Shown piece by piece: positions 43,189 to 64,000 of a stretch of 64,000 nt of DNA. The notes under the pieces were generated by a model. The model was given only the letters and a program-made list of their open reading frames with translations, searched no databases and was not told where the DNA came from. Within the stretch, counting starts at the first letter, position 1, and every line of letters begins with the position of its first letter. Source of the stretch: Natronoarchaeum mannanilyticum (GTDB lineage Archaea > Halobacteriota > Halobacteria > Halobacteriales > Natronoarchaeaceae); assembly GCF_039522665.1 (NCBI RefSeq), contig NZ_BAAADV010000008.1:164909-228908 (forward strand). Reading direction: 5' to 3'. Both the position numbers and the translations under genes were made by a program.

Positions 43189-43992
43189 CTACGACGATTC
43201 CTGTTGGGAGATCGCCGTGTCCAATCGATTCCAGACCATCTCGAACGCCGGCGGATCACCGGTCAGGTCTGGCAGCGTGGTCCCCCACTGGTGGCGGATC
43301 GTCTCTTGTTGCTCGGCGGGGAGGCCGTCCGTCAGATCAACGGTGAGTCCATCGTGGTCGCACTTTGCCTCGAAGGCGGGTCCCACGTCGGCAAAGTTGA
43401 TCGTGACCGAATCGGTTTCGAGCAGCTGATAGAGGTCGTAGTAGTCACGGGCGGCCCCGCGCTGATAGATCGCACGGAGCTTTTCGGCGAAGATCTACTC
43501 GACGCTGTACGCTTGGAGATCGAATTCGGGAACGTCTTCGTACGCGTGAGTGTGCTGAACAGGGTCGAAGGCGACATGCTCGTCGACCATCACGTCGATG
43601 CTGGTCGTGTTGGGGTGGTTGAGGACGGCCCGGTACTGAATGCTGATGTCGACGTAGTGGGTCGGATAGTGGTCCTGCTGGGATTCGTGGTGCTCTCGAA
43701 TCTCGAATTCGATGCCAGATCGGTCGGCGATCGTATCGAGAACCGTCCGTAGCTCTCGCTTGGATCCCTGATACTCCCCTTCGACACCGAAATCGAGGTC
43801 CTCCGAGAATCGCCACGATTGCGGAAAATACAGCTTGGACAGCGCGGTCCCGCCTTTGAACAGGAGATTGTCACCGTAGTCGCTCGCGAAGATGCCCCAA
43901 AGGAGCCACGAATTGACGTAGTTCTTTTCGGCGTACCCTTGCCGAACGCCCAGTTCGCGGGCGAGGATCCTGAGCCGGTCCTGACTGATCAT
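43189..43992 (-). pseudogene. AbiEii-type nucleotidyltransferase toxin with an in-frame stop
   Basis: Reading through one TAG (43495-43497) gives a 267-codon protein: N-terminus MISQDRLRILARELGV, the nucleotidyltransferase core LLFKGGTALSKLYF and RFSEDLDFGVEG, then YSVE-stop-IFAEKLRAIYQRG and an intact C-terminal half. AbiEii proteins continue EEIFAEKLRA here, so a sense codon became TAG. The core motifs needed for catalysis are before the stop, but the C-terminal helices are not translated. The 5-bp gap to the AbiEi-like gene upstream shows the classical AbiE operon order. Confidence 0.87.
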
Positions 43993-43997
43993 CGCAA

Positions 43998-44828
43998 TCA
44001 GGACTCCGTCGGTTCCAGCGTGGCTGGCTCGACGTTGACCCGGAGGCGATACGCGCTGTCGGTCGATCCGGTGTCAGGCCGCGTCGGATCTAGTAGGGAA
44101 TAGCCGCTCGTGAACGACGCGACGAGTTCCTCGCGGGCGGGGAGATCGATGCCCAACTGGTCGGCGAGGTAGACGATCCGCTTGGTCGCAGCGCCGTTGT
44201 CGAGGCGCTCTATGTACTCGCCGACGGTGTCCCAGTCGCAGCCCCGTTCGTCGGCGGCTCGCATCGCGGTCGCGAGTTCCCGAAGGCCACCGCAGAACTC
44301 GGGGTGGTCCGCACAGTCAACCAGCGTCTTCTCCAGGTCGCTGACCTGAACGGTCGTACCCTCGATGGATGTCGGATCAAATCCGAAGAACTTCCGCTCG
44401 GTGACTGTGGTAACGCGGTACGGAACGCCGTGGGTCTCCCGGCTTTGCGCCCGGGTCGGCGTGACGACGTACACCGTCCGGGGGACCTGTTCGGTCAGCC
44501 CGTGGTGGCTGAGGGCGCTGTAGTAGCCGATGTACATCGGCTCGGCGACGTGGGCAGCAATGAGGTACTCATGGGTTGTGTATACGGACTCCTCACCGGC
44601 AGCGAGTGGAATGATGAGATACGTGCCTGGGAAGAGCCGATCGAGCCAGCCCTTCTCGGTGAGCCGGGAGGCGATCTCTCGGGCAGTGTTTGGGGCGACC
44701 TCGAGCGTCGTCTCGATGTCGTCGACGGAGATGATCTGGTGGCCTGAACCGGCTAGTCGTGAGAGGAGTCGACTTTCTCGAGTCGAGAGTCCCTGGCGTA
44801 CATCTTTCGATTGCTCTATTGTACTCAT
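43998..44828 (-). CDS. AbiEi-family antitoxin/transcriptional regulator
   Basis: 276 residues. N-terminal winged helix (VDDIETTLEVAPNTAREIASRLTEKGWLDRLFPGTYL) then the AbiEi C-terminal region (HEYLIAAHVAEPMYIGYYSALSHHGLTEQ). In AbiE systems this protein binds its own promoter and counteracts the AbiEii toxin. A TATA-like TTTATACTC lies about 30 nt before the ATG and inverted-repeat copy c about 80-120 nt before it. Confidence 0.9.
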   Translation of the reverse strand: MSTIEQSKDVRQGLSTRESRLLSRLAGSGHQIISVDDIETTLEVAPNTAREIASRLTEKGWLDRLFPGTYLIIPLAAGEESVYTTHEYLIAAHVAEPMYIGYYSALSHHGLTEQVPRTVYVVTPTRAQSRETHGVPYRVTTVTERKFFGFDPTSIEGTTVQVSDLEKTLVDCADHPEFCGGLRELATAMRAADERGCDWDTVGEYIERLDNGAATKRIVYLADQLGIDLPAREELVASFTSGYSLLDPTRPDTGSTDSAYRLRVNVEPATLEPTES

Positions 44829-44952: not shown

Positions 44953-45885
44953 TCAGGCGCCGTCTTCGATCACGTCGATGAGCTCTTCTGCTGTGGTACT
45001 GATCCGGTCGAGACGGTCGCGAGCGACTTCCGGATCGTCTGACTCCCATGCAGCTAGGTAGAATGCAGAGCCACTGGTGTCGAGCCCGCAGTACCGCCCA
45101 ACAACGTACGCGACCGCCTCGGCCTCGACTTCGCGTTTCGTCCGCTCGGTATCGTCGTCGACGTCGAAGTGGAGCAGGGCGTGCGCGTACTCGTGGATCA
45201 GCGTCCGCGCAAGGTCAGCCTCGTTCTCTCGATCACGCACCTCGACGAGCGGCTGAACGTCGACGAGGCTCAACTGCTCGCAGATGCCTTTCGCCTCGCC
45301 GTGGGTCCACTCCTCTTCTGAAACGATTCGCACTGTTACGCCGAGCTCATCAGCAGCGGCAATCAGCCGAGAAACCAGATCGCCGGCGTCTCCGGTCGCT
45401 TTCGTGTCGAGGTCGGGAAGCGGTTCTCCCTCGATCTGGGAGACGTCGAACACCGGCGCGGGCTTGAATCCGACCAGGCCCTCAGACCACTCCTCGGGTG
45501 GCGTCGCGTCGTACTCACAATCGCTGTCCTCGTGGTAACTCGGCGAGTTTTCGCACTCCGGGCACTGTTTCGTGATGATCGGCGCCCAGATCCAGATGGC
45601 CGACTCCCCCTCCGTGACGTGGCGGTCGAACTCCTCCTGCCACGTACGGTAGCCGGCCACCCGGGTTGCCTCGGGACACTGGCGTTTGATGAGGAGCGTG
45701 TTCCGGTAGGAGTAGTCGTGGAAGCGACTCTGGACGTCGAGCCACTCTTGGAACTCTTCGCTGGCCTGCGCGTCGTCGACGCCGACGACGAGCTCGTCGA
45801 TCCACTGTTCGATAGTGCTGTTCATCTCGTCTGATCGCGTGTCGGTCTGATCGAAGGAGACCGACGAATCACTGGTCGTAGCCAT
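44953..45885 (-). CDS. ArdC-like antirestriction protein/zincin metallopeptidase
   Basis: 310 residues. N-terminal ArdC-type ssDNA-binding region (~20-130; FHDYSYRNTLLIKRQCPEATRVAGYRTWQ) contains an extra CPEC pair, and the C-terminal half is a zincin with HEYAHALLHF (HExxH). ArdC proteins of plasmids protect entering DNA from host restriction. The start follows a T-tract/GC-palindrome promoter element. Confidence 0.87.
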   Translation of the reverse strand: MATTSDSSVSFDQTDTRSDEMNSTIEQWIDELVVGVDDAQASEEFQEWLDVQSRFHDYSYRNTLLIKRQCPEATRVAGYRTWQEEFDRHVTEGESAIWIWAPIITKQCPECENSPSYHEDSDCEYDATPPEEWSEGLVGFKPAPVFDVSQIEGEPLPDLDTKATGDAGDLVSRLIAAADELGVTVRIVSEEEWTHGEAKGICEQLSLVDVQPLVEVRDRENEADLARTLIHEYAHALLHFDVDDDTERTKREVEAEAVAYVVGRYCGLDTSGSAFYLAAWESDDPEVARDRLDRISTTAEELIDVIEDGA

Positions 45886-48345: not shown

Positions 48346-48645
48346 TCATTCGGCTGGTACCGCATTTTCTGTCTCGGAGAAGTACTGCGCTTCCCACTCA
48401 CGTCGTGCTTCGAGTTCGCGTCTAGCCCGTTTCGTCAGTGCGTACTCGTTCGTACGTTTGTCCTTCTGACTCTTTTCGACGAGTCCCATACTTACCAACT
48501 CGTCTAGATTAGGGTATAGCCTGCCTGCATTGATATCCTTCTCATAGTATTCGGCGAGCGCTGATTTCACTGCAAGGCCGTGAGGCTTGTCAAGCCCGGC
48601 GATTACATATAAACAGTCTCGCTTAAATGCGGTGAGATCATGCAT
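48346..48645 (-). CDS. PadR-family transcriptional regulator (1 of 3)
   Basis: 99 residues, a single winged helix: MHDLTAFKRDCLYVIAGLDK, then YYEKDINAGRLYPNLDELVSMGLVEKSQKDKRTNEYALT. The short form lacks the C-terminal dimerisation extension of larger PadR proteins. Closely similar to the genes at 56236 and 56941. Its upstream region to 48720 is A+T-rich, a likely self-regulated promoter. Confidence 0.9.
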   Translation of the reverse strand: MHDLTAFKRDCLYVIAGLDKPHGLAVKSALAEYYEKDINAGRLYPNLDELVSMGLVEKSQKDKRTNEYALTKRARRELEARREWEAQYFSETENAVPAE

Positions 48646-56235: not shown

Positions 56236-56532
56236 ATGCACGATTTGACCGGATTCCAACGCGACCTGCTGTACGTGATCGCGGGCCAGGACAAACCACA
56301 TGGTCTTGCCGTCAAGGACGAACTCGAGGAGTACTATGAGCAGGAAATTCAACACGGCCGATTGTACCCGAATCTCGATTCTCTGGTCGAGAAGGAACTC
56401 GTTGAGAAGGGAGAACATGACCGGCGGACGAACTACTACGAGCTGACGCAACGTGGCCAGCGCGAACTGGAAGCACGGCGGGAGTGGGAACAGCAGTACC
56501 TCAACGAGGCAGAGGTAGACCTCCCAGCGTAA
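56236..56532 (+). CDS. PadR-family transcriptional regulator (2 of 3)
   Basis: 98 residues: MHDLTGFQRDLLYVIAGQDK then YYEQEIQHGRLYPNLDSLVEKELVEKGEHDRRTNYYELT. The closest relative in the window is the gene at 48346. Transcribed divergently from tfb, with a 270-bp intergenic region that probably holds its operator. Confidence 0.92.
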   Translation: MHDLTGFQRDLLYVIAGQDKPHGLAVKDELEEYYEQEIQHGRLYPNLDSLVEKELVEKGEHDRRTNYYELTQRGQRELEARREWEQQYLNEAEVDLPA

Positions 56533-56940: not shown

Positions 56941-57243
56941 ATGTCTATGAGCCTCTTCGAGCTCACGGCGTTTCAGCGCGACCTGTTGTTCATCATTGCC
57001 ATGGTAGACGAGCCATCCGGGCAGGAGCTTAAAGACCAATTTGAGGAGGAAACGACAGCTACCGTAAATCGTGGGAACATCTATCCGAATCTCAATACTC
57101 TTACTGAGAGAGGGTTCATCAACAAAGAGAGCCGTGATTGCCGAACAAATTGCTATTCTCTTACTCAGCAAGGCCGCTCTTGTCTCCATCAACGTCACAA
57201 GTGGGAGCAAGAACACTTAGCTGGTGCCCAACAGACAGTCTGA
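56941..57243 (+). CDS. PadR-family transcriptional regulator (3 of 3)
   Basis: 100 residues: MSMSLFELTAFQRDLLFIIA, then QFEEETTATVNRGNIYPNLNTLTERGFINKESRDCRTNCYSLT. The most diverged of the three, and lower in GC than its neighbours. An ATG two codons later is the alternative start. Confidence 0.9.
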   Translation: MSMSLFELTAFQRDLLFIIAMVDEPSGQELKDQFEEETTATVNRGNIYPNLNTLTERGFINKESRDCRTNCYSLTQQGRSCLHQRHKWEQEHLAGAQQTV

Positions 57244-58388: not shown

Positions 58389-59651
58389 TCAGTCACTCTC
58401 AAACAACTGCTTTGTCCGTCGCCAGATGGACGCTGTTTCTGACCCGCTATTGTCCTCTCTTGTGGAAGTCGACTGGTCTTCGTGCACCTGCTGCCGCTCT
58501 CGGTCACGATCAGTACGTTCTGGCGTAAGCCGCTCGATTTCTGCTTCGAGTTGGTCAATACGCTCGTTTTTCTGTTCGAGCCGTGCCTCGAGCTCGTCGA
58601 CACGATCAGCCAGCAGCCGATTTTTCTCTGTTAAATACACCCAGGTGCGCTCCGAGCTATCGCTGCCTTCGTCAGCAGCCGGCTTCTCTGTACTACTGTT
58701 GGGGCGATTTGACTCGTCGGTGGCGTCTGGATCGTAGAACTCGGAGGTATTCGCAATCGCCCGCTCGATGGTCTTTTCACCGTACGTCGACCCGTCGGCG
58801 TAGTGGACTTCGTCCCATTTCGGTCGGATGAGTCCGGACTGTCGAAACAGCCGGTCCATCTGTGTCTGCTCGCCACCGGTCCAGAACGCCAGCATACAGC
58901 ATAGTGCCATATCGGCTTCAGACTGACTTTCGTAGCTGCCTGTATGTCCGTTCCAGAGGCGCTCGAACTTCGCCCCGTTTGAGGCGTTCGTTGCTTTCTC
59001 TATGAGTTCCTCGTCCGTGAGGTCGGTACTGACGTCGCTGCCCTTGTCTGTCTCAGCGTCTTCGATATCGGTCCTACTGTGACCGGACTCAGACGCTTCG
59101 CCGTTGGTGTCCTGTATGTACTCGCTGTGAATCGCCACGAGTGCGTCTTGTCGATGAGCGATACGCGAGGGCGTCCCGTCGACGTGATCACCAGTAACTG
59201 TGAAGAAGCGCGCGTTGTCGTACAGTTCGACGCTTCCTTTGCGGTTTCGTCCGTCGGGCAGGTCACCTTTGGTCAGCACGTGGTAGCCAGTTCCGGACGG
59301 CGAGATCTCGGTGAAGGAGTCGAGTCGTTTGATGATGTCTCGAGCCGTGTTGTCCACGTCTTCGCTTTCCGGGTCGCGGCAGTCGTCGAGATCGACGCCG
59401 ACGTACGGATCGTCTTCTGTAAACACGAAGCCGACGCCGTCGGCGTCCCCAGTTTCGGCGTACTCGAGGGCTGTCGCGAACTTGGCCCACGTGTCCGGGT
59501 CTGTTGATGATGCGAACGAACCGGTGCTCGGCGTTACTGGTATTTTCGTTGGCTTCCCGTCGCGGTGCTCTTCGCGCCAGCACACCCACTGCTCTCGGGT
59601 TCGAATCCCGGCTGGCAATGCGTCGCTGTCGATGATCGTTGTTTCACTCAT
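58389..59651 (-). CDS. Prim-Pol (AEP superfamily) replication protein with coiled-coil tail
   Basis: 420 residues. N-terminal ~1-165 is an archaeo-eukaryotic primase-type catalytic domain: metal Asp pair in YVGVDLDDCRD (D87, D89), nucleotide motif SPSGTGYHVL (117-126), and VELYDNARFFTVTGD as the third motif. It is similar to phage and plasmid prim-pols of the NrS-1 type. Residues ~215-310 (NGAKFERLWNGHTGSYESQSEADMALCCMLAFWTGG) match the helical domain that follows such cores. Residues ~345-390 form a coiled coil. No helicase domain is fused. Preceded by the shared promoter element and followed by nothing co-directional for 600 bp. Confidence 0.85.
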   Translation of the reverse strand: MSETTIIDSDALPAGIRTREQWVCWREEHRDGKPTKIPVTPSTGSFASSTDPDTWAKFATALEYAETGDADGVGFVFTEDDPYVGVDLDDCRDPESEDVDNTARDIIKRLDSFTEISPSGTGYHVLTKGDLPDGRNRKGSVELYDNARFFTVTGDHVDGTPSRIAHRQDALVAIHSEYIQDTNGEASESGHSRTDIEDAETDKGSDVSTDLTDEELIEKATNASNGAKFERLWNGHTGSYESQSEADMALCCMLAFWTGGEQTQMDRLFRQSGLIRPKWDEVHYADGSTYGEKTIERAIANTSEFYDPDATDESNRPNSSTEKPAADEGSDSSERTWVYLTEKNRLLADRVDELEARLEQKNERIDQLEAEIERLTPERTDRDRERQQVHEDQSTSTREDNSGSETASIWRRTKQLFESD

Positions 59652-59661
59652 GGTGATATTT

Positions 59662-59696
59662 CGAACGGCCCACTCCTCTTGGGCCGATACAAAATC
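59662..59696 (-). promoter_or_regulatory. T-tract/GC-palindrome promoter element
   Basis: Minus strand: GATTTTGTATC then GGCCCAAGAGGAGTGGGCC, 11-45 nt before the ATG at 59651. The palindrome GGCCC/GGGCC is perfect with a 9-nt centre. Confidence 0.62.
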
Positions 59697-59775
59697 TCAC
59701 TACGCTGCTCTTGTTCTCGGTCACTGGTTGGCGACCCGACACGGGTCATCGGGGATGCACAATCGTCTCGAGACA

Positions 59776-60084
59776 TCAGCGACATAGACCGATCGTTCTC
59801 ACCTGGGTGGCACGCATCAGTTCCAACGGTGTGCCCCCCTTCTTTCTTAGTTGGTTTTTGCCGTAGCGACGGTCGTGATCGGGCATATTCGCTACAGTAG
59901 CCCGGCTTACGGCAGGGATATTACCGTAAGCCGTCGATGCCGTAGTACCGTCGCTACTGTAAGTGCCGTAAGACCGTTCTGGCGTGCGCCTCTCGGCTAG
60001 TTCCTCAGCGAGTGATGCTGTCTGATCTGTCCCGATCGTCAAGGTACCGTCTCCGCGACAGTCTCGATACCACTCCCGGATCAT
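59776..60084 (-). CDS. Small protein coupled to the large ATPase
   Basis: 102 residues from MIREWYRDCRGDGTLTIG. Its ATG overlaps the stop of the large ATPase (ATGA), indicating coupling. Rich in Thr/Ser/Tyr in the middle (ERSYGTYSSDGTTASTAYG) with no recognised domain. A longer reading upstream enters the ATPase gene and is rejected. Confidence 0.55.
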   Translation of the reverse strand: MIREWYRDCRGDGTLTIGTDQTASLAEELAERRTPERSYGTYSSDGTTASTAYGNIPAVSRATVANMPDHDRRYGKNQLRKKGGTPLELMRATQVRTIGLCR

Positions 60085-63000
60085 GACGTCCAGCCCTCCG
60101 CGAGTTCGACTCCTTCGTAACACCGAACAGACGACCCGTCGCGGTATCCGACTGTCCGTTCGAAGTCGACGTGATTGCTGAGCCGGCGTGCGAACCAGTT
60201 CTTCGAGTCTGGGGAGATGCCGTGCTGCTCAGCCCAGCTTTCGTACGTCGCATACACTGCTGCGGAAGTGGTCGCCCCGCTTTCGGATTCCCGCAAACAA
60301 TCCTCGGCGAACTTGGCAACGGCCGCATCTGGATCGTCTTTCCACTCTGCCTTCGTTTCGCCGGGTGTCGACGTCGATGCCGTATCTGACTCCCCGTCGT
60401 CCAAATCAGAATCAGCTTCGGGGGAAGAACCAGGATCCGATCTCGCCGGCTCGGTCTCTGTCTTAGTATGAACGGACTTCTCCTCTCCGACAGATGGCTC
60501 GGGGTTCCCGACTGTGAACGACGTCTCGAGAAGCTCCGACAATGGGTGAGCATCGCCGTTACGGTAGACAAACGGCTGTTGGTCACCGTCTTCGAGGACG
60601 ATGATCGCGTAACTCCGTTGATCGTACTCGGGAACGGGAAGTGTGTCTTCCGGGACGAACGGGCGCTTGATCCGCGACCACTCCGACTCGAACGCCGACT
60701 TTTCCTCGTAGACGTGACGTTCGCCGTGTTCGTCGACGACGTACTCGTCAGCCGCCGGATCGTAGCTGTAGACGGCCGGAACGCGATCCTTGGTCAGTTC
60801 GTCGAGCGATCGGAGGCGGATATGTTCGTCGGCCTGACCGTCACGCAGGACGATATCGCCTTCGTCATGCGTCCAAACGCTCTGGTCAGTATCGCTTTTT
60901 ATCGCAACCGGACGGACGGCAGTGACGCCGCCCTGCTCGGTCGCACCGCCGTTGAACGTGATCGACGAATCCGACGTGTAGAACCGCTGCTCTCCGCTCT
61001 GGAGCACGCGAACGGGCGGTGACAGGATTCCTTCGACGCGCTCGGCCCAGTACGTCTGCGAATCGTCGGTGCGGACGACGAACAGCGGTATCTCCTCGGC
61101 CTCCTGCGCTTTCCGGAGGTTCGTCAGTACCTTCGAGGGATTCTCCGGCGTCGTCGTTTCGACCTCGATAGCGAACGTCGGATCGAGATCGGGGTGTGTC
61201 GCTCTCGCGTCGGGTTTCTCGCTCCCGTCCTGTGAGAGGATCGAGACAGTGAACCCCAGAGACGTGAGTTCCGATTCGATCTCCAACAGCGCATCGTCGT
61301 GATCGCTACTGCCCGCAGCTCGCACGTTTCCGGTGTCAGGAGTGGCGACCTGTTCACCCGCCTCCGTGAGTTGAACGACGACATCGTCAGCCTCGATATC
61401 GACCGTCGTATCGACGAGGCGAGAGCGCTGCCGAATGTCCGTGAGTTCGTTCACCGACGGCGGGTCGGCATCGACGTCCTGGTACAGTTGCCGGAGTTTA
61501 CCGTCGACCGTTTCGACCGGTACCCACTCGTTCTCTTCACGCACGCCGCGTTGCAGCTGGACGCTTCGGATCGTCTTCGCGATCGCGACGTCGAGGTCGT
61601 CGGTGGTAACGCTGAGGACCTCGCGAAGTTCGTCGGGCGTACTCGCGTCCGGCGTTGCAGCTTCCTCCGAGACGCCAAACCCATCGCTCACGCGGTTTTG
61701 AATTGCCGTCAGCGTCTCCTGGAAACGCTCTTCCTCTTCGTCGGTCAACGGCTGGGTGCTTTCGGGGTGTCCCTCCGGAATCGGAAGTGGTTCGACGCTG
61801 AACGGGTACGGACCGGTTTTACCGAACGTCGGACTCGGCAGACTCGCAATCCATTCGCCCCGCGGTAGCGATCGAATTCTGTTCGCGAAGTCGACGGGAT
61901 CCATCTCCTCGTGTGCCATCGCCTGGGCCATCTCCTGGTCGACGTTGATCTTCCCGACCAGCGACGTCCCGATGTTGTTCAGGGCGTTCAGGTACACCTT
62001 CCGTCCGCCTTCAGCTTCGATCTGTTCGGGAAACTGCATCGACAGTCCGACCGACAGGCGAAAGCCCCGTCCTTTCTCGAGCAGGTCGTTCATGATGTCG
62101 GAGACTACGACGGACGCCGCTTCGTCGATCAGCAGATTCGCGACGTACTCGTCGGGCTGGCGATCGAGATTTCGCTTGCGCTCTTTGAGGGCGTCGTCGA
62201 GATTCGTCAGGATCACCCCCGTCATGATCGTCGCAGCATCGTCGCGGAGGTCACCTAGGTCGAACAGGATGACCTTGTTCTCGTCGAGGACGTCCCGGAA
62301 GTCGAACCGGCGCTCGGTGTTGTTGAAGATCTTCCTGAGGTGGGTGTCCTGCGAGATGTAGGCGAGCCGGTTCCCGACGCCACCCATCACATTCGAGAAC
62401 GTACTGGAGTCCAGCTGCAGCTGCCGGCGGATCGTCCGCTCGATCTCCTCGTCACTCGTCTGAGGAACTTCCGCCATATCGGGCTGGGGCGGGCCAGCGT
62501 CCCACAGTTGATCGACGGCGTGTTCCAGTTGCTGATGCGCGAAGTAGTTCTCCGACTCTCGGTATCGCCCGTTCTCCCGGCCGTACTCTTCGTCGAACAG
62601 CGTCTTGATCAGCGACTGGATAACGGTGGGGGCGACGGTCGCTCGCTCGTAGCGCTCCTCGCCCATGACGAGCTTCAGAAGCTCTTCGTAGTGATCTGCT
62701 TTCCGTTGGACGGCGTCCTCACGCCGCCGTCCGTTCTCCAGCGAGGGCTCCAAGTTGAAAAACGAGAATCCCGGAAGGACGTCTGGTACCGGGAAGTGGA
62801 TCACGTTCTCCTCGAGGTCGGACAGTCCGAAGCGCCGCCCGTGGGCGCGCATATAGTTCTCCGTCATACCGTCGCCCTTCGGATCGATGAGGACGACTGG
62901 TCCCTCCGTATTAGCATACAACGAGAGCATATCGTTGATGAGCGCTTTCGACTTCCCCGAGCCAGTCGTCCCGAATCGTCCGTAGTGCGTCGGAAGGAGT

Positions 63001-64000
63001 CCTGGTGGCACGTGTGTCGGAATACCTTCCGGAACACCGTTCTCGTCGAGCGCGTAGCCGATCGCCATCCCGTCACGGAACTCGCGCATGAGGTCCTGGT
63101 GCGGGCGAGGAAGCGGATTGCGGCTCTGCTGTTCGGCTCGCGTGCCTCTCGTTCCCTCGACGGTGAGATCGCCCGACGACGGCGTCAAGATGAAGTTCGC
63201 GAGCTCATCTCCGTTCAACACGAGATCGGGCCGAGTCGCTCCAGAGCCGGTAGTGATCTCACGGTCCCGCAAGCGCGAGAGTTCCCGCTGAGCGCGTTTT
63301 TCTTTCGTCTTCTGTCGGAGTCCCCCCTCGCGTAATCGCTGGCCGTCAACGCCGTAGAAGCGCCCGTCGAGCGAATCGAGCGCAGAGCACATCGTCTCGA
63401 GACTCGATTCGAGCGACGGTGGAACAGAATCCTCCGAGGGGACGGAAACCACACGGAGATTGGTAGTGAACGTCCGCTCTGGCGAGTTGTCCTCGATACG
63501 GTCGTACCGTCGCTTTGCATCGCCTCGCAGGTCAGCCGCCGTCCGCTCCCAGTTATCGTCGAGAAGAAAGCCCAGGACCTTCTGACCGAGTGTGTCGCGC
63601 CCAGCGAGGAGGTCGGCCTGACGGTCGACAGCGCTGGAGGTCCAGTCCGGTTTTCGGCGAAAAACGACTTGGAAGGCAGTCGGCTGGTCTACCTCCGTGA
63701 GCAGATCGATCAGCGGTGCGAGCGGCGCACGCCCTTGGTCGGATTCGTCAGCGGATCCGGATTGCGTCGCCGATGTCGTGAACGCGGTGAGCGGCGTCAT
63801 CCAGTCACGTTTCCGTTCGCCCTCGCCCTGCCAGCGGACGCCGACGGGCGAGACGTCATCGATCGGTGGACGGGCTAACACACGACCGTCCGGTGTCGCA
63901 GTCGGTCGGTCGAGTTTCGTCCACGGCTGCTCCTTCGGGATCTCGTCCGGCGAAGCGAGTTCAATCACACCGCCTTCACAGTCGACGTACCTGCTGCTGG
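60081..64000 (-). CDS. HerA/TraG-type ATPase fused to PD-(D/E)XK-like and primase-type winged-helix domains, 5' end cut
   Basis: At least 1295 residues from a GTG at 63968, but the frame is open to the window edge, so the N-terminus may lie outside. Domains: N-terminal ~1-300 without known fold; FtsK/HerA/VirB4-like ATPase ~300-720 with Walker A GTTGSGKS (333-340), Walker B LLIDEA (612-617) and the GLSMQFPEQ sensor; a nuclease-like unit ~890-970 with KPDARA (P919-D920) and AIEVETTT (E935/E937) as in restriction-like PD-(D/E)XK folds; an acidic linker; and ~1205-1290 a winged helix like the C-terminus of P4-type primases (FAEDCLRESE...VYATYESWAEQHG). Likely pumps or processes the element's DNA in transfer or replication. 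The nuclease call is by pattern only. Confidence 0.82.
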   Translation of the reverse strand, partial: SSRYVDCEGGVIELASPDEIPKEQPWTKLDRPTATPDGRVLARPPIDDVSPVGVRWQGEGERKRDWMTPLTAFTTSATQSGSADESDQGRAPLAPLIDLLTEVDQPTAFQVVFRRKPDWTSSAVDRQADLLAGRDTLGQKVLGFLLDDNWERTAADLRGDAKRRYDRIEDNSPERTFTTNLRVVSVPSEDSVPPSLESSLETMCSALDSLDGRFYGVDGQRLREGGLRQKTKEKRAQRELSRLRDREITTGSGATRPDLVLNGDELANFILTPSSGDLTVEGTRGTRAEQQSRNPLPRPHQDLMREFRDGMAIGYALDENGVPEGIPTHVPPGLLPTHYGRFGTTGSGKSKALINDMLSLYANTEGPVVLIDPKGDGMTENYMRAHGRRFGLSDLEENVIHFPVPDVLPGFSFFNLEPSLENGRRREDAVQRKADHYEELLKLVMGEERYERATVAPTVIQSLIKTLFDEEYGRENGRYRESENYFAHQQLEHAVDQLWDAGPPQPDMAEVPQTSDEEIERTIRRQLQLDSSTFSNVMGGVGNRLAYISQDTHLRKIFNNTERRFDFRDVLDENKVILFDLGDLRDDAATIMTGVILTNLDDALKERKRNLDRQPDEYVANLLIDEAASVVVSDIMNDLLEKGRGFRLSVGLSMQFPEQIEAEGGRKVYLNALNNIGTSLVGKINVDQEMAQAMAHEEMDPVDFANRIRSLPRGEWIASLPSPTFGKTGPYPFSVEPLPIPEGHPESTQPLTDEEEERFQETLTAIQNRVSDGFGVSEEAATPDASTPDELREVLSVTTDDLDVAIAKTIRSVQLQRGVREENEWVPVETVDGKLRQLYQDVDADPPSVNELTDIRQRSRLVDTTVDIEADDVVVQLTEAGEQVATPDTGNVRAAGSSDHDDALLEIESELTSLGFTVSILSQDGSEKPDARATHPDLDPTFAIEVETTTPENPSKVLTNLRKAQEAEEIPLFVVRTDDSQTYWAERVEGILSPPVRVLQSGEQRFYTSDSSITFNGGATEQGGVTAVRPVAIKSDTDQSVWTHDEGDIVLRDGQADEHIRLRSLDELTKDRVPAVYSYDPAADEYVVDEHGERHVYEEKSAFESEWSRIKRPFVPEDTLPVPEYDQRSYAIIVLEDGDQQPFVYRNGDAHPLSELLETSFTVGNPEPSVGEEKSVHTKTETEPARSDPGSSPEADSDLDDGESDTASTSTPGETKAEWKDDPDAAVAKFAEDCLRESESGATTSAAVYATYESWAEQHGISPDSKNWFARRLSNHVDFERTVGYRDGSSVRCYEGVELAEGWTS

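Follow-up and report, generated by a model that had tools for sequence, protein, structure and literature searches.

A haloarchaeal coupling ATPase fused to a nuclease fold and a winged helix, with a partner primase and an origin-like iteron/hairpin spacer: a candidate DNA-processing module for conjugation

We analysed a stretch of 64,000 nucleotides (the window) from the haloarchaeon Natronoarchaeum mannanilyticum (contig NZ_BAAADV010000008.1, positions 164,909 to 228,908), near the right end of which an element carries a type IV secretion system (T4SS) operon with a coupling ATPase gene, a non-coding spacer and the gene of a primase-polymerase (prim-pol). We found that the coupling protein combines a HerA-class ATPase, a PD-(D/E)XK-type nuclease fold and a primase-type winged helix in one chain, as a preliminary description of the window had proposed and as Pfam searches, AlphaFold2 (AF2) models and fold searches now bear out. 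Our analysis, made by computation alone, points to this module as probably the DNA-processing and docking unit of a haloarchaeal conjugation-type T4SS. The further proposal that it is a relaxase-free initiator of conjugation, in which the coupling protein would find its own origin, cut, export the DNA and hand it to a dedicated primase, is more tentative, and we put it forward as a serious candidate.

The coupling protein and the exchange of its domains

The open reading frame (ORF) at 60081-63968 (-) given in the preliminary description is real, but is cut by the window edge; the sequence to the right of base 64000, which that description had recommended obtaining, showed that the gene runs on, that it starts 516 bases beyond the ORF edge and that it occupies the equivalent of window positions 60081-64484 (contig 224989-229392), encoding a protein of 1467 aa (P0001; Table 1). 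DUF87, TrwB_AAD_bind and Pox_D5 all scored above the Pfam gathering score in P0001; its ATPase core, matching TrwB, TraG-D_C and DUF87, is of the HerA/FtsK class that defines type IV coupling proteins (T4CPs), and in the alignment the Walker A (FGTTGSGKS) and Walker B (LLIDEAAS) motifs are unbroken. A VirB4 homologue of 1110 aa is encoded directly upstream in an overlapping frame, and farther upstream are genes for a VirB6-like membrane protein, a lipoprotein, a large surface protein and a 160-aa pilin (T4SS_pilin, above the gathering score). Because of these VirB4, VirB6-like and pilin genes, P0001 is a T4SS coupling ATPase of the VirD4/T4CP type. It had earlier been called a VirB4/HerA-class pump, of which the HerA class stands, whereas VirB4 is the separate gene just upstream.

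At residues 1216-1267 of the window ORF, Pox_D5 scored above the gathering score, and the match recurred at E<=1 in 28 of 29 homologues. The structural model shows the expected winged helix within the stretch named earlier for structure prediction (ORF residues 1200-1295), the nearest fold being the RFX DNA-binding domain (template-modelling score, TM, 0.80-0.85). PHROG linked phage primases to both genes: their ends matched the C-terminus of P0001 and their starts the prim-pol, phrog_1829 matching both. The primase of Listeria phage LP-030-2 is a single chain of prim-pol, HBD, D5_N, superfamily 3 (SF3) helicase and this same winged helix.

The region from about residue 880 to residue 980 in the ORF of the window (P0001 1052-1152), also singled out earlier for structure prediction, was modelled by AF2 as alpha-beta-beta-beta-alpha-beta-alpha, which contains the PD-(D/E)XK core fold, alpha-beta-beta-beta-alpha-beta. 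A fold search with the whole model was swamped by the winged helix, and the nuclease was therefore modelled and searched separately. Most of its best PDB matches were PD-(D/E)XK enzymes; the matches included Hjc (Holliday junction resolvase; probability 1.00) and VRR-NUC (0.99), and further the DdmD nuclease domain, Bax1, HindIII and EcoRV. Since the E-values of this search are weak (best 0.011), the assignment is carried by the probabilities of 0.99-1.00 and by the consistency of the fold class. In 37 diverse homologues the D of PD[AG], the E-x-E, H, Q and T are invariant, and a lysine on a helix is kept in >90%. The motif reads PD..E-x-E, in which the lysine of the canonical ExK is replaced by glutamate and displaced to the next helix; the P0001 nuclease is thus predicted to be likely active, though, because of this displacement, short of certain.

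We surveyed 100 loci picked by their coupling protein and 20 picked by orphan prim-pols (loci are designated by L and a number), among which the ATPases fell into three groups. Clade A, to which the window protein belongs, has the nuclease, a mid domain and the winged helix. Clade B has an ATPase related to that of clade A (37.7% median identity) and an unrelated nuclease-like C-terminus, lacks the winged helix, and its genes likewise follow VirB4. In clade C the ATPase part shares only 26% identity (78 bits) with clade A, whereas the half with nuclease, mid domain and winged helix shares 39.6% (282 bits), as compared with 41.9% (295 bits) within clade A. A distant ATPase thus carries the same C-terminal half, which by this sequence comparison has been exchanged between ATPases. 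We do not claim from the C-terminal tree that clade C is nested inside clade A, because the approximately unbiased (AU) test keeps a single clade A (p 0.73). The clade B C-terminus was ruled out as a homologue of the P0001 nuclease, no similarity being found by profile comparison. The only hint of such a nuclease in clade B is a PD-(D/E)XK-like motif order, D...GEAEL...DYDK, for example in L043:10027-11079, and a convergent fusion of a nuclease to coupling ATPases may be possible there.

The partner primase and the origin-like spacer

The preliminary description took the prim-pol to be a separate gene at 58389-59651, which proved correct: its product (420 aa) matched solved NrS-1 primase structures with an E-value of 1e-41, and no D5_N or SF3 helicase match was found by Pfam in either the coupling protein or the prim-pol. 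A search for the same arrangement elsewhere, also suggested there, showed a primase gene directly downstream on the same strand of 58 of 60 winged-helix coupling proteins, as compared with 2 of 41 without a winged helix (loci not selected by primase only; Fisher 4e-23, a value that ignores shared ancestry). Loci L120-L123 retain the nuclease but have neither winged helix nor primase, so that it is the winged helix, and not the nuclease, to which the primase is tied. Clade C coupling proteins, for all the distance of their ATPase, bring the primase as well. Furthermore, nine loci have, in place of the prim-pol, another protein of 671-673 aa that resembles archaeo-eukaryotic primases (AEP-like), located 40 bases downstream in the loci inspected. 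Its catalytic half is unrelated by sequence to the prim-pol, but the coiled-coil tails of the two are homologous: the AEP-like tails scored 44-52 bits against the prim-pol tail model, the best non-primase scoring 24, and a real tail segment reached 60.4 bits, as against a maximum of 46.2 in shuffles (0 of 2000 reaching the real score). Apart from its coiled coil, the 671-aa protein matched nothing in Pfam, PHROG or PDB; segments resembling motifs by eye (GDIDLADD, DSVGGAYVF and NKNRQYKPPLSIHAD), together with its position and tail, make it a putative primase. The pairing of winged helix and primase therefore holds despite a very different ATPase in clade C and despite the replacement of the primase itself. 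The prim-pols beside winged-helix-free ATPases (L109, L114 and L151) do not have this coiled-coil tail. Two chromosomal prim-pols of the same family (L152:7004-8161 and L153:7362-8531) start within about 6 bases of the end of a VirB4 gene and are without nuclease, winged helix and spacer core.

The gap between coupling gene and prim-pol was 202-430 bases long in the 52 loci measured and is non-coding; we found in it no conserved frame for a small ORF and no credible RNA family or bacterial-type promoter. A core with the consensus AAAACCRACTAGTATAG was present in 57 of 57 spacers at <=6 mismatches, mostly 0-2 (33 of 57 at 0-1), whereas the best core in shuffled spacers mostly had 7-8. It pairs with a downstream GTYGG, 89.6% of cells being paired as compared with 22-51% when the arms were slid; 16 double changes were counted, and one pair is A-U in 27 and G-C in 11 sequences. 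Upstream of the core an 8-nt iteron is repeated, mostly 4-7 times, in a layout that is alike across loci, the modal number of copies being 5 as against 3 in shuffles. In the window, TTACGGCA at <=1 mismatch has five copies within 113 bases, out of 27 in the whole 64 kb. Judging from these features, we consider the spacer an origin-like site, with element-specific 8-nt iterons and a conserved hairpin core.

The core profile detected no copy in clade B (except L050), in the AEP-like loci, in L120-L123 or beside prim-pols that have no winged helix nearby. It did find the core in L050 and L140, remnants with little beyond winged helix and prim-pol: what is left at L050:1950-2542 and L140:6567-7591 is the winged helix (or mid domain and winged helix) with core and prim-pol, which looks as though the winged-helix end of the cassette had outlived the ATPase. 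At L096:10047-10094 a core follows a winged-helix coupling gene, and no primase was found in that contig stretch. Where the primase is a prim-pol, its gene starts about 120-210 bp downstream of the site. Of the 9 AEP-like loci, 8 have a related core, accompanied in several of them by GACACCAG iterons, but there it lies downstream of the primase gene, at a distance ranging from about 200 bp to 4.7 kb. The site is therefore not simply a primase promoter.

The iterons appear to follow the winged helix. Across 37 clade A loci, iteron similarity correlated with winged-helix identity with a partial r of 0.60 (0 of 500 permutations), as against a partial r of <=0.09 in size for the ATPase, the nuclease, the mid domain, the primase N-terminus and the DNA downstream of the core; in 25 non-redundant loci the values were 0.57 for the winged helix (0 of 500 permutations) and <=0.11 for the others. 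Natural swaps point the same way. For example, L035 and L054 have nearly the same ATPase (98% identity) and nuclease (99%), yet their winged helices share 32% identity and their iterons read TTACGGCA and TTCCACCC, respectively; L039 and L041 are 91% identical in the ATPase but 34% in the winged helix, with iterons TTACGGCA and TGTCCAGG. The window shares its iteron with its two nearest winged helices (L075 and L067), but not with its nearest ATPase and nuclease (L034). The prediction, drawn from comparison, that the winged helix docks the coupling protein on its own iterons is well supported.

Table 1. Positions of the module, its parts and a neighbouring gene in the window
Feature	Position	Strand	Sequence, basis or remark
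Coupling ATPase gene, VirD4/T4CP-like	60081..63968 in window, up to 64484 equivalent in full	-	Pfam and genome ORF; P0001, 1467 aa
HerA/TrwB-type ATPase domain, Walker A and B intact	61695..63044	-	P0001 481-930; Pfam, alignment
PD-(D/E)XK-fold nuclease domain	61023..61307	-	P0001 1060-1154; invariant D1092, E1107, E1109, near-invariant helix K
Mid domain, between nuclease and winged helix	60495..60938	-	P0001 1183-1330; kept in clades A and C
Pox_D5/RFX-type winged helix, proposed iteron reader	60102..60335	-	P0001 1384-1461; Pfam, PHROG, AF2 model
Non-coding origin-like spacer, coupling gene to prim-pol	59652..60080	-	Spacer comparison
Iteron copy 1	59964..59971	-	TTACGGCA
Iteron copy 2	59938..59945	-	CTACGGCA
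Iteron copy 3	59922..59929	-	TTACGGTA
Iteron copy 4, inverted	59907..59914	+	TTACGGCA
Iteron copy 5, adjoining core	59859..59866	-	CTACGGCA
Core hairpin CCAAC...GTTGG	59823..59854	-	Family consensus AAAACCRACTAGTATAG...GGGG..CCCCGTYGG
Prim-pol gene, NrS-1-type primase-polymerase, HBD domain, conserved coiled-coil tail, no SF3 helicase	58389..59651	-	Pfam, PHROG, PDB
ArdC-like gene, single-stranded DNA-binding antirestriction type	44953..45885	-	Same side of element

Proposed mechanism and competing explanations

We propose that the C-terminal winged helix would bind the coupling ATPase to the origin of its own element through several (mostly 4-7) 8-nt iterons; that the fused nuclease, held beside the hairpin core, would cut or resect to give the transfer substrate; that the ATPase would drive the DNA through a channel of VirB4, VirB6 and pilin; and that the prim-pol, brought in through either its coiled-coil tail or the hairpin, would prime the complementary strand. 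In this scheme we infer the nuclease activity, the cleavage at the core, the transfer of DNA and the primase's site of action.

Several observations weigh against this scheme. RNAalifold predicted no consensus fold for the core, so that the hairpin claim is carried by the counted pairs; several clade C copies of the core lose the 3' arm, and the core of the window itself is a divergent copy. Winged helix and iterons are adjacent, and a single recombination event could shift both; such linkage, the chief confounder, may play a part, but is argued against as the whole story by the domains and the DNA on both sides, which have no such partial correlation. In leave-one-out nearest-neighbour assignment, the nearest winged helix had the same iteron in 14 of 25 cases, barely ahead of the nearest mid domain with 13 of 25. 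Finally, the position of the lysine on the next helix makes activity of the nuclease likely rather than certain. The nuclease-like domain might be dead or serve another role, such as attacking competing DNA or processing the ends of DNA that comes in, rather than opening the origin, as the glutamate in place of the ExK lysine and the unrelated nuclease-like C-terminus of clade B, borne without a spacer site, would allow; we nevertheless judge this unlikely, given the invariance of H, Q, D, E, E and T and the >90% retention of the helix lysine in the 37 homologues.

The module might also serve replication instead of transfer, as an initiator of the P4/RSF1010 kind whose winged helix sits on the iterons, whose ATPase unwinds and whose prim-pol primes at the hairpin, linkage to the T4SS being secondary. 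In P4 alpha, the winged helix reads origin repeats, followed by unwinding and priming, and in RSF1010 (RepA/RepB'/RepC) iterons and short stem-loops are recognised by its primase (PMC4234260). The comparison with P4 made in the preliminary description fits, since the prim-pol with HBD resembles pRN1 ORF904 and the winged helix is of the P4/D5 type, and phage primases have the same domain set. However, P4 alpha and ORF904 are single chains with primase, SF3 helicase and D5 winged helix, whereas here there are two genes, no D5_N/SF3, and a winged helix carried by the coupling ATPase; RSF1010 uses other protein families, and here the motor is a T4CP and a nuclease is added. In addition, a complete carrier plasmid encodes its own Orc1/Cdc6 and has no annotated relaxase, which argues for transfer rather than ordinary replication; the ATPase is of the coupling-protein type within a pilin/VirB6/VirB4 operon; and clade B coupling proteins stand behind VirB4 without winged helix or primase. 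Replication as the main role is accordingly a reading to which we give little credence. It had been suggested that the module could be a merged replication-transfer machine unlike standard conjugation or P4 systems: replication parts are merged with a transfer pump, but the module is not outside conjugation, because it has a VirD4-type pump and a separate VirB4 in a recognisable T4SS operon.

Improbable, in our judgement, is the suggestion that the spacer is an operator or leader autoregulating the prim-pol, with the winged helix as repressor and no role as origin. Iterons beside genes can be operators, and in the prim-pol loci the site does precede the prim-pol start; but in the AEP-like group the site is downstream of the primase, L096 has the core although no primase was found there, and covarying hairpin arms are unexpected in a plain promoter. 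That the C-terminal parts are unrelated linkers resembling known domains by chance is scarcely credible in view of the curated Pox_D5 score, two confident models, the PD-(D/E)XK and RFX fold matches and deep conservation, which also contradict the refuting case named in the preliminary description (no nuclease fold and no winged helix).

Distribution, related systems and significance

The architecture is not a one-off but is widespread on haloarchaeal plasmids. Of 391 Halobacteria genomes, 247 have homologues of the coupling protein, which also turned up on 178 plasmid records; many are labelled 'conjugal transfer protein' or 'primase-like DNA-binding domain-containing protein', so that the gene family is already known at the level of annotation; 177 of the 178 records are 'non-mobilizable' by current typing. 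No MOBP or MOBF relaxase (PF03432, PF08751) was found in this genome, other MOB families not being searched. MOBP-relaxase-like matches were seen in 10 of 145 Halobacteria genomes (including L156 and L157), mostly in ORFs of 170-250 aa, and no winged-helix cassette was seen in those genomes.

The element in the window is a mosaic, its VirB4 being 84% identical to that of a clade C locus and its coupling ATPase 82% identical to that of a clade A locus. In it, a fused clade C-type VirB4 (L002:13356-16688, upstream of the window end) adjoins a clade A coupling protein. An ArdC-like gene, which in the window adds to the T4SS context, is also present on a Halorientalis plasmid bearing the cassette. 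An AbiEii/AbiEi-type toxin-antitoxin pair lies at window 43495-44828, with an apparently short AbiEii frame (165 aa). There are also three small related ORFs (window 48346-48645, 56236-56532 and 56941-57243); Pfam assigns the second of these to the PadR-type regulators, and those at 48346 and 56941 are similar by eye. In NZ_CP095484.1 (L160 and L161), RefSeq labels the prim-pol 'hypothetical protein' and VirB4 'transferase', and XseA/XseB are encoded just upstream of the T4SS genes.

P0001 shares with the T4CPs VirD4, TraG and TrwB the HerA/FtsK-class core and a place in a T4SS operon, directly downstream of VirB4, but differs in its length of 1467 aa and in its fused nuclease and putative origin-reading winged helix; no such fusion is described in the parts consulted of a 2025 review of T4SSs (PMC12857230). 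TcpK of pCW3 has a winged helix that binds 9-nt repeats of the origin of transfer (oriT) for conjugative transfer (PMC6137059); it similarly combines a winged helix with short repeats, but is a separate small protein and not part of a coupling protein. HerA-NurA, the proposed source of the substrate of Ced/Ted DNA transfer (PMC9905601), likewise couples a HerA-class motor to a nuclease in archaeal DNA transfer; NurA, however, has an RNase H fold and is separate, whereas here the nuclease is of the PD-(D/E)XK type, covalently attached and joined to an element-specific putative origin reader.

In the library searched, which takes in few preprints and subscription papers, we found no publication on the nuclease fusion, the pairing of winged helix and primase or the iteron/hairpin site. 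Three findings are new here: that winged helix and primase go as a pair, that the spacer holds an iteron/hairpin site, and that the iterons depend on the winged helix. We regard the module as a variant of the T4SS coupling protein that stands a substantial chance of being a new way of starting conjugation. For archaeal conjugation no relaxase is known, according to the literature (PMC9905601, PMC12857230). If our proposal is true, one compact module does the DNA-processing job of the bacterial relaxase, which would give a mechanism for the relaxase missing in archaea. The module is a concrete candidate for making and delivering transfer DNA, found across haloarchaeal plasmids; it offers exact sites to mutate, and the natural swap pairs predict which winged helix binds which repeat. 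The combination of winged-helix coupling protein, primase and iteron/hairpin site may also serve as a marker for elements now typed as 'non-mobilizable'.

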